Origin: Gammaproteobacteria bacterium
Lineage (GTDB): Bacteria; Pseudomonadota; Gammaproteobacteria; UBA6429; Thiohalophilaceae
Assembly: GCA_024275915.1 (NCBI GenBank)
Contig: JAJRYG010000010.1
Location: forward strand, 1-64,000
Length of the DNA: 64,000 nucleotides
Direction of reading: 5' to 3'
Part shown: in pieces, positions 49,448-51,334 of the stretch
Position numbering within the stretch: position 1 is the first letter of the stretch
How the letters are laid out: the number at the start of each line of letters is the position of its first letter
Program-made: the position numbers and the translations under genes
The notes under the pieces: model-generated
What the model was told of the DNA's origin: nothing
Databases searched by the model: none
Seen by the model: only the letters and a program-made list of their open reading frames with translations

Positions 49448-49476
49448 GCGGCTGAACATGCCGGGCAACCTTGACA

Positions 49477-49588
49477 GGATGTTGAAAAAGCCCCTCCCTC
49501 ATATTTTCAATGACTTGTGGTCATTGAAAATGGCGGCGCTTCCCTGCACCGCACACAGGCTGTCGAATAACGGTATTTTTCAACAGCC
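49477..49588 (+). repeat. Copy B of the MITE-like repeat (ends GGATGTTGAAAAA / TTTTTCAACAGCC), containing an internal 12-bp perfect hairpin
   Basis: Inverted ends, internal ATTTTCAATGAC-ttgtg-GTCATTGAAAAT (49503-49531), and a shared GCACCGCACACAGGCTG core with 2110..2182 (opposite orientation). Confidence 0.75.
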
Positions 49589-49711
49589 GGTTAATTAATC
49601 ACTTGCACCGGACACTTGCCACAGACTCAGTCAGCATGATCCTGCCCGGATCCAGCCTATGACCGGGAAATCAGGTATCATGCGTGGCTTTATGATTTCG
49701 GGGGACAGAAC

Positions 49712-50488
49712 GTGACACTGCTGGGATGGATTATCCTCTTCAGTCTGCTCGGCGGGGTGCTGAGCGTGCTGGCGGCGGCCGTGTTCCTGTTGCTGCCGGA
49801 AGGTCTGCGCACCCGGCTGCTGCCCCATACCATCAGTTTTGCCATCGGGGCCCTGCTTGGCGCTGCCTTCCTGGCCCTGTTGCCCCATGCGCTGGAGGGC
49901 GGTCAGGATTTCCATGCCATCGGCATGACCGTCCTGATTGGCCTGCTGGTATTTTTTCTGCTGGAAAAAATGGTGCTCTGGCGCCACTGTCATGCCGAGC
50001 ATTGCGAGGCCCATGGGCCGGAAGAACACAGCCACGGGGGGCAGGCGGCCGGAACCCTGGTGCTCATCGGCGATGGCCTGCACAATTTTGTCGACGGGGT
50101 GCTGATCACCGCCGCCTTCCTGACCGACATTCATCTGGGCATCGTCACCGCCCTGGCGGTGGCGGCTCATGAAATTCCCCAGGAAGTGGGGGATTTTGCC
50201 ATTCTGCTGCACAGCGGCTTCAGTCGCCTCAAGGCCTTTTTCTACAATATCCTTTCCAGCCTGGCGACGCTGGTGGGCGCACTGCTGGCCTGGTGGAAGC
50301 TGGGTCAGGCCACGGACATCATTCCCTACGTGCTGGCCGTGGCGGCCGCCAGTTTCATCTATATTGCCGTGGCGGATCTCATTCCCGGTCTGCACAAGCG
50401 GGTTCACATTGCCGCGACGGTGCAGCAGGTCGTCCTGATCGTCGCCGGTGTCACGGTGATTTATTTTGCCCATGCCACCCTGCACTGA
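49712..50488 (+). CDS. ZIP-family metal transporter
   Basis: Eight-TM-like protein; LIGDGLHNFVDGVLITAAFLTD and VAAHEIPQEVGDFAILLHSGFS (ZIP metal-site helices); His-rich loop HCHAEHCEAHGPEEHSHGG. GTG start. Confidence 0.93.
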   Translation: MTLLGWIILFSLLGGVLSVLAAAVFLLLPEGLRTRLLPHTISFAIGALLGAAFLALLPHALEGGQDFHAIGMTVLIGLLVFFLLEKMVLWRHCHAEHCEAHGPEEHSHGGQAAGTLVLIGDGLHNFVDGVLITAAFLTDIHLGIVTALAVAAHEIPQEVGDFAILLHSGFSRLKAFFYNILSSLATLVGALLAWWKLGQATDIIPYVLAVAAASFIYIAVADLIPGLHKRVHIAATVQQVVLIVAGVTVIYFAHATLH

Positions 50489-50493
50489 ATGAA

Positions 50494-50682
50494 CCCAATC
50501 GTGGCAAAAATTTTTGGATGCAGGGGTTTTGAGGACAGTATTTTCAGGGGCAAGCGCAGATTTTTCCAATCGCAGCATGGCCCACCGAAATGTGAGGATT
50601 GGAAAAATCGAGCACGACACTGAAAATGCTGGCATGGAAGGCGCTACGCTATCCTGCGCCGAAAATTTATGCAACGATTGGG
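50494..50682. repeat. 189-bp nested imperfect palindrome (MITE/REP-like element of unknown type)
   Basis: Arms pair at three levels: CCCAATCGTGGCAAAAATTTTTGGATGCA / TGCGCCGAAAATTTATGCAACGATTGGG (outer), CAGTATTTTCAG / CTGAAAATGCTG (middle), GATTTTTCCAATC / GATTGGAAAAATC (inner, perfect). Confidence 0.8.
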
Positions 50683-50797
50683 TGAAGCCAACGGGTGACC
50701 AACACAGGGCAAGATCATACTGTCTCATATACGGTTAGTGGCCGGTGCAAGGTGAGTATGCGCTTGCACTGGTGAACAACAGGAAGCGGAGCAAGTT

Positions 50798-51334
50798 ATG
50801 ACGAAAGACAAAATCAACTGGTACATGCTGACCCTGGTGGGCCGGGATCGGCCGGGCATCGTCGCCCATGTGACCTCAGCCCTGTACGAGGGAGGTTGCA
50901 ACCTGGGGGAAACCTCGATGATGCGCCTGGGAGGCAACTTCACCATCATGATGATGGTGCAATGTGACAACAGTAAAACCACCCTGCACGAAGTCATGGA
51001 TGGCGTAGCCGAATCTCTGGGGCTGAAGCTGCATGTCGATCCCATCAAGGCGAAACTGCATGAGCACCGTCAGCCCGATGTGCGGATCTCGGTCTATGGC
51101 GCCGATCGGGCCGGCATCGTGGCCAGGGTCACCGAAACCCTGGCCGAAGCCGGGCTGGACATTCTGGAGCTGGAGTCGGATGTGGCCGGCACCGAAGCGG
51201 CGCCCATCTATATCATGAACATGGAAGGGCATGCGGCCGAAGGCTTCGAGGCCCTGGAGTCGGCCCTGGACATCGTGCGCAGGGAACAGGGGATCGAAGC
51301 CAGTATCAGTCGCATCGAGACCATGGTCGGGTAG
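50798..51334 (+). CDS. gcvR: ACT-domain protein, glycine cleavage system transcriptional repressor GcvR-like
   Basis: Two ACT domains: YMLTLVGRDRPGIVAHVTSALYEGGCNLGETSMMRLGGNFTIMMMV and RISVYGADRAGIVARVTETLAEAGLDILELESDVAGTEAAPIYIMNMEG. Confidence 0.8.
   Translation: MTKDKINWYMLTLVGRDRPGIVAHVTSALYEGGCNLGETSMMRLGGNFTIMMMVQCDNSKTTLHEVMDGVAESLGLKLHVDPIKAKLHEHRQPDVRISVYGADRAGIVARVTETLAEAGLDILELESDVAGTEAAPIYIMNMEGHAAEGFEALESALDIVRREQGIEASISRIETMVG

Follow-up and report, generated by a model that had tools for sequence, protein, structure and literature searches.

The 189-bp nested palindrome lying just downstream of a ZIP metal transporter gene, in a window comprising 64,000 nucleotides of a gammaproteobacterial contig, very probably belongs to a MITE family that is spread through the genome and moved in trans by an IS1380-family (DDE) transposase. 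The element is a MITE: it is non-coding and multicopy, is bounded by inverted repeats with fixed ends, has a target duplication, and has empty sites in relatives. From the sequence we infer that it is mobile, and that an IS1380 enzyme binds and transposes it. An earlier note on this DNA had offered two suggestions, a non-autonomous mobile element or a structured RNA. The first stands, on the evidence of the copies, ends, duplications, empty sites and IS1380-like repeats; the second is not supported.

The boundaries given in that note prove exact, with CCC opening the element at 50494, 6 bp past the stop codon of the ZIP gene (50486-50488), and GGG closing it at 50682. The three nested stems that it described are all present, the outer arms being imperfect and about 30 bp long, and the inner stem is indeed a perfect 13 bp around a loop of 25 nt. 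We likewise find neither coding capacity nor a transposase-like frame in the 189 bp, where the note had seen no apparent open reading frame. The features of the locus are as follows.

49712-50488, plus strand: upstream gene, ZIP metal transporter (PF02535, E = 5.8e-36), which adjoins an ACT-domain gene in relatives
50490-50493, no strand: left target-site duplication TGAA, the same as 50683-50686
50494-50682, plus strand: MITE, 189 bp, non-coding, with at least 40 copies in its own genome having common ends
50494-50522, plus strand: left terminal inverted repeat CCCAATCGTGGCAAAAATTTTTGGATGCA, with 2 changes from the consensus in the first 19 bases
50536-50547, plus strand: left arm of the middle 12-bp stem, CAGTATTTTCAG
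50559-50571, plus strand: left arm of the inner 13-bp stem, whose arms are GATTTTTCCAATC/GATTGGAAAAATC
50597-50609, plus strand: right arm of the inner 13-bp stem, around the 25-nt loop
50620-50631, plus strand: right arm of the middle 12-bp stem
50655-50682, minus strand: right terminal inverted repeat, its outer 19 bases being the exact family consensus
50683-50686, no strand: right target-site duplication TGAA, the same as 50490-50493
50798-51334, plus strand: downstream gene, two-ACT-domain protein, GcvR-like (PF13740, E = 8.5e-21)

The statement that no second copy was evident holds within the window, and at least 39 further copies lie elsewhere in the genome. The DNA search of the organism's own assembly (G000; 2.34 Mb in 112 contigs, 77% complete), which the note had proposed as a check, reveals a multicopy element with at least 40 scored places, the copies being 77-97% identical and mostly full length. 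Their ends are sharp, and the CCC...GGG tips are common to the family members. The family consensus of the terminal inverted repeat is CCCAATCGTTGCATAAATTTTTGGATGCA, and a search for the terminal-repeat pattern allowing up to 3 mismatches gave 85 matches, compared with 0 for the reversed control. Shortened derivatives of about 133, 100 and 59 bp are found on contigs C69, C80 and C93 respectively, and single MITE ends are also present in the assembly. At one locus (L005) a copy splits the reading frame of a membrane protein, which resumes past the element. Because individual copies diverge from the consensus by between 2% and 18%, with a mean of 9%, the family appears to have spread over some time, its copies decaying afterwards.

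Other repeats and genes are found in and around the copies. Near C45:29014 (L091) a copy is cut, at the end of the contig, by what may be the start of an IS630-type transposase gene. Copies of the MITE (L031:505-840, and also on contigs C40, C78 and C23) contain nested insertions of a third repeat family, whose ends resemble GGCTCTTCAGAAGAATTTGTGGGTGG and CCACCCACAAATTTTTCTAACGAGG and which has dozens of partial matches across the genome.

The earlier note also called for a search for target-site duplications, and a 4-bp duplication is found; TGAA flanks the window copy on both sides. For copies with intact tips, the 4-bp flanks have 50 matching bases, compared with 36 when the partners are shuffled, and there are 6 exact 4-bp duplications where the permutation gives an expectation of 1.2 (p about 0.0002). 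Among the lengths compared only 4 bp clearly exceeds permutation; lengths of 1-3 and 5-7 bp show no clear excess and were rejected. The insertion sites are AT-rich, with the pattern T-N-N-A. We also considered tips of ACCC...GGGT with a 2-bp duplication. The outer base varies together with its partner in copies flanked by ATAA/ATAA and ATAT/ATAG, and the 4-bp duplication is therefore preferred. Copies flanked by ATAA/ATAA further show that the outer bases are part of the target and not of the element. Many of the older copies have imperfect duplications.

The same note suggested a search of relatives for the corresponding empty site. We read the junction between the ZIP and GcvR-like genes in one genome of the same genus (G001) and four of the same family (G005, G007, G008 and G012), and there is nothing like the element between the two genes in any of these five. 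The distance from the ZIP stop to the GcvR-like start is 14-43 bp in the relatives, compared with 309 bp here. A 206-bp query found no MITE copy in 39 relatives, 24 of which are of the same genus or family. The intergenic stretch 3' of the MITE is also longer than in the relatives, and 43 bp within it (50709-50751) are 98% identical to C76:74001-74043, near another MITE copy. On the 5' side of the ZIP gene, at 49470-49600 of the window, there is an element of 100-130 bp belonging to a second repeat family, with about 40 genome copies and ends TGTTGAAAAA.../...TTTTTCAACA. Two unrelated repeat families thus lie on either side of the ZIP gene.

Could the palindrome instead have been kept for its fold, as a conserved structured RNA or a hairpin with a regulatory role, such as an attenuator, a processing site or an sRNA? 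The fold is certainly very stable. The region 50480-50700 has a predicted energy of −87.9 kcal/mol compared with −61 ± 4.3 kcal/mol for shuffled sequences (z = −6.3, with 0 of 200 shuffles as good), and the family consensus reaches −96 kcal/mol (z = −9.6); the ZIP gene and the element, moreover, probably share a transcript. Against this, there is no match in Rfam, the element is absent from the same place in relatives, and no single copy folds as well as the consensus, which is what decay after insertion would predict. The covariation test put forward in the note went against a conserved fold, with almost no support from RNAalifold. In 28 copies there are 156 broken pair cells where shuffled columns lead us to expect 162, and 13 double compensated changes, barely above the 9 found in shuffled columns. 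Pairing has been kept between copies no more than by chance, and a conserved RNA function is therefore unsupported; we regard it as extremely unlikely. The palindrome is best read as a feature that the element had on insertion and that then decayed, rather than a fold kept by selection at each site, since pairs are broken at about the chance rate and covariation is almost nil.

An intergenic, palindromic and multicopy sequence also brings to mind a REP/BIME-type palindrome tied to a RAYT (TnpA-REP), or a transcription terminator. A typical REP unit is 20-40 bp long and generates no target duplication, whereas the present element measures 189 bp, has fixed ends and is flanked by duplications of 4 bp. 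A consensus scan found no terminator with a T-run at this position, in keeping with the view in the note that this is not a simple terminator. The probability of either identity is close to negligible.

The evidence for an IS1380 partner comes from the terminal repeats. A scan of the class for the terminal repeat gave multicopy matches in other genomes, and in one of these (G025) it bounds a 458-aa transposase (NF033539, E = 1.5e-72; PF13701, E = 1.1e-44), forming a complete IS1380 element with the end ACCCTATCGTTGCATAAATTTT. The flanks of this element, TTGA/ATTA, do not form a perfect duplication. In the MITE's own genome, a protein search identified, where contigs C80, C58 and C37 end, C-terminal fragments of IS1380 transposase that a PF13701 search had not returned. 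Outside the fragments lie ACCCAATCATTGCATAAATTCT at C80 and ACCCGATTGTTGCATAAATTCG at C58, which are the same terminal repeat. The 77%-complete assembly contains no complete IS1380 transposase gene, the fragments stopping at contig ends; contigs ending inside the gene would be expected of a repeated insertion sequence in a short-read assembly.

The right terminal repeat of the window copy has 1 mismatch in 19 with the IS1380 ends of both G025 and contig C80. The repeat CCCNATCGTTGCATAAATT is common to the MITE and to the IS1380 elements of G025, G197 and contigs C80 and C58, in a family (NF033539/PF13701) that includes ISEcp1, IS1247 and ISPme1. Both the MITE and the IS1380 family have a short, AT-rich target duplication, that of the family being 4-5 bp in length. 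Unlike IS1380 elements, the MITE lacks a transposase gene, and the similarity is confined to about 20 terminal bases. Another genome (G182) contains an element of 261 bp that has both IS1380 ends but has lost most of the transposase gene, and we take it to be an intermediate form generated by internal deletion of an IS1380 element. For IS1247 one report gives a duplication of 5 bp (PMC3281130).

That the IS1380 genes of the MITE's own genome are fragments only would be compatible with movement by a transposase of some other family, whose ends are similar by chance. Yet in two different elements the IS1380 ends agree with the MITE terminal repeat at 18 of 19 bases, the duplication length fits IS1380, and the internal-deletion form in G182 also argues for this family. 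We therefore consider a different transposase very unlikely.

With IS1380 as the preferred partner, the transposase would bind the terminal repeat CCCAATCGTTGCATAAATT at both ends of the MITE and then excise or copy it, and the MITE would insert at an AT-rich T-N-N-A site with duplication of 4 bp. The window copy would have landed in this manner just 3' of the ZIP stop, between ZIP and GcvR-like genes that are nearly adjacent in relatives. A transcript passing through both genes would carry a strong hairpin, which may have some effect on the transcripts of the two genes.

Similar elements are found beyond this genome. Four other gammaproteobacterial genomes (G295, G182, G202 and G287) contain MITEs 82-190 bp long that have the same tips, several of these being flanked by exact duplications (TTTA, TAGA, TATA or TTAA), and a further gammaproteobacterial MAG contains a copy of the whole MITE that is 88% identical (L098). 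The record of that MAG, together with the gene content of the window, points to Gammaproteobacteria as the class of the present DNA. Three of four exact terminal-repeat matches in the genome contigs (L095-L097) were single and unpaired, and were taken as chance. There were no matches in plasmid records or in viral contigs.

The MITE family is new, while MITEs of such size and number are a well-known kind. Chunjie of Geobacter uraniireducens (38 copies of 178-235 bp, inserted in an operon; PMC10969869) is alike in size, copy number, terminal repeats, direct repeats and shortened derivatives, and in its insertion between neighbouring co-directional genes. It differs in sequence, and for the present MITE a name, IS1380, can be given to the transposase family. 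The 4-bp TTAA-type duplication and CCC tips also recall eukaryotic piggyBac and its non-autonomous forms (PMC10813416), for which IS1380 has been used as an outgroup (PMC10813416). In contrast to piggyBac, the MITE is bacterial, its target is T-N-N-A rather than strictly TTAA, and there is no piggyBac transposase. Among papers mentioning both IS1380 and MITEs, in a partial coverage of the literature, there is no description of an IS1380-driven MITE, and IS1380 goes unmentioned in a review of bacterial MITEs. We see an even chance that these elements represent a widespread, undescribed superfamily of IS1380-driven palindromic MITEs in the Gammaproteobacteria, with the piggyBac-like hallmarks of a TTAA-like 4-bp duplication and CCC tips.

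A palindrome that had no explanation can thus be read as a mobile element whose likely partner has a name, and related MITEs can be recognised by the same ends in several other gammaproteobacterial genomes. The IS1380 element ISEcp1 moves resistance genes, and for this reason the minimal ends and targets accepted by the family are worth knowing. The piggyBac-like targets make the evolutionary link testable; if such a superfamily exists, it would show that MITEs sharing this target preference arise from the bacterial relatives of piggyBac as well.
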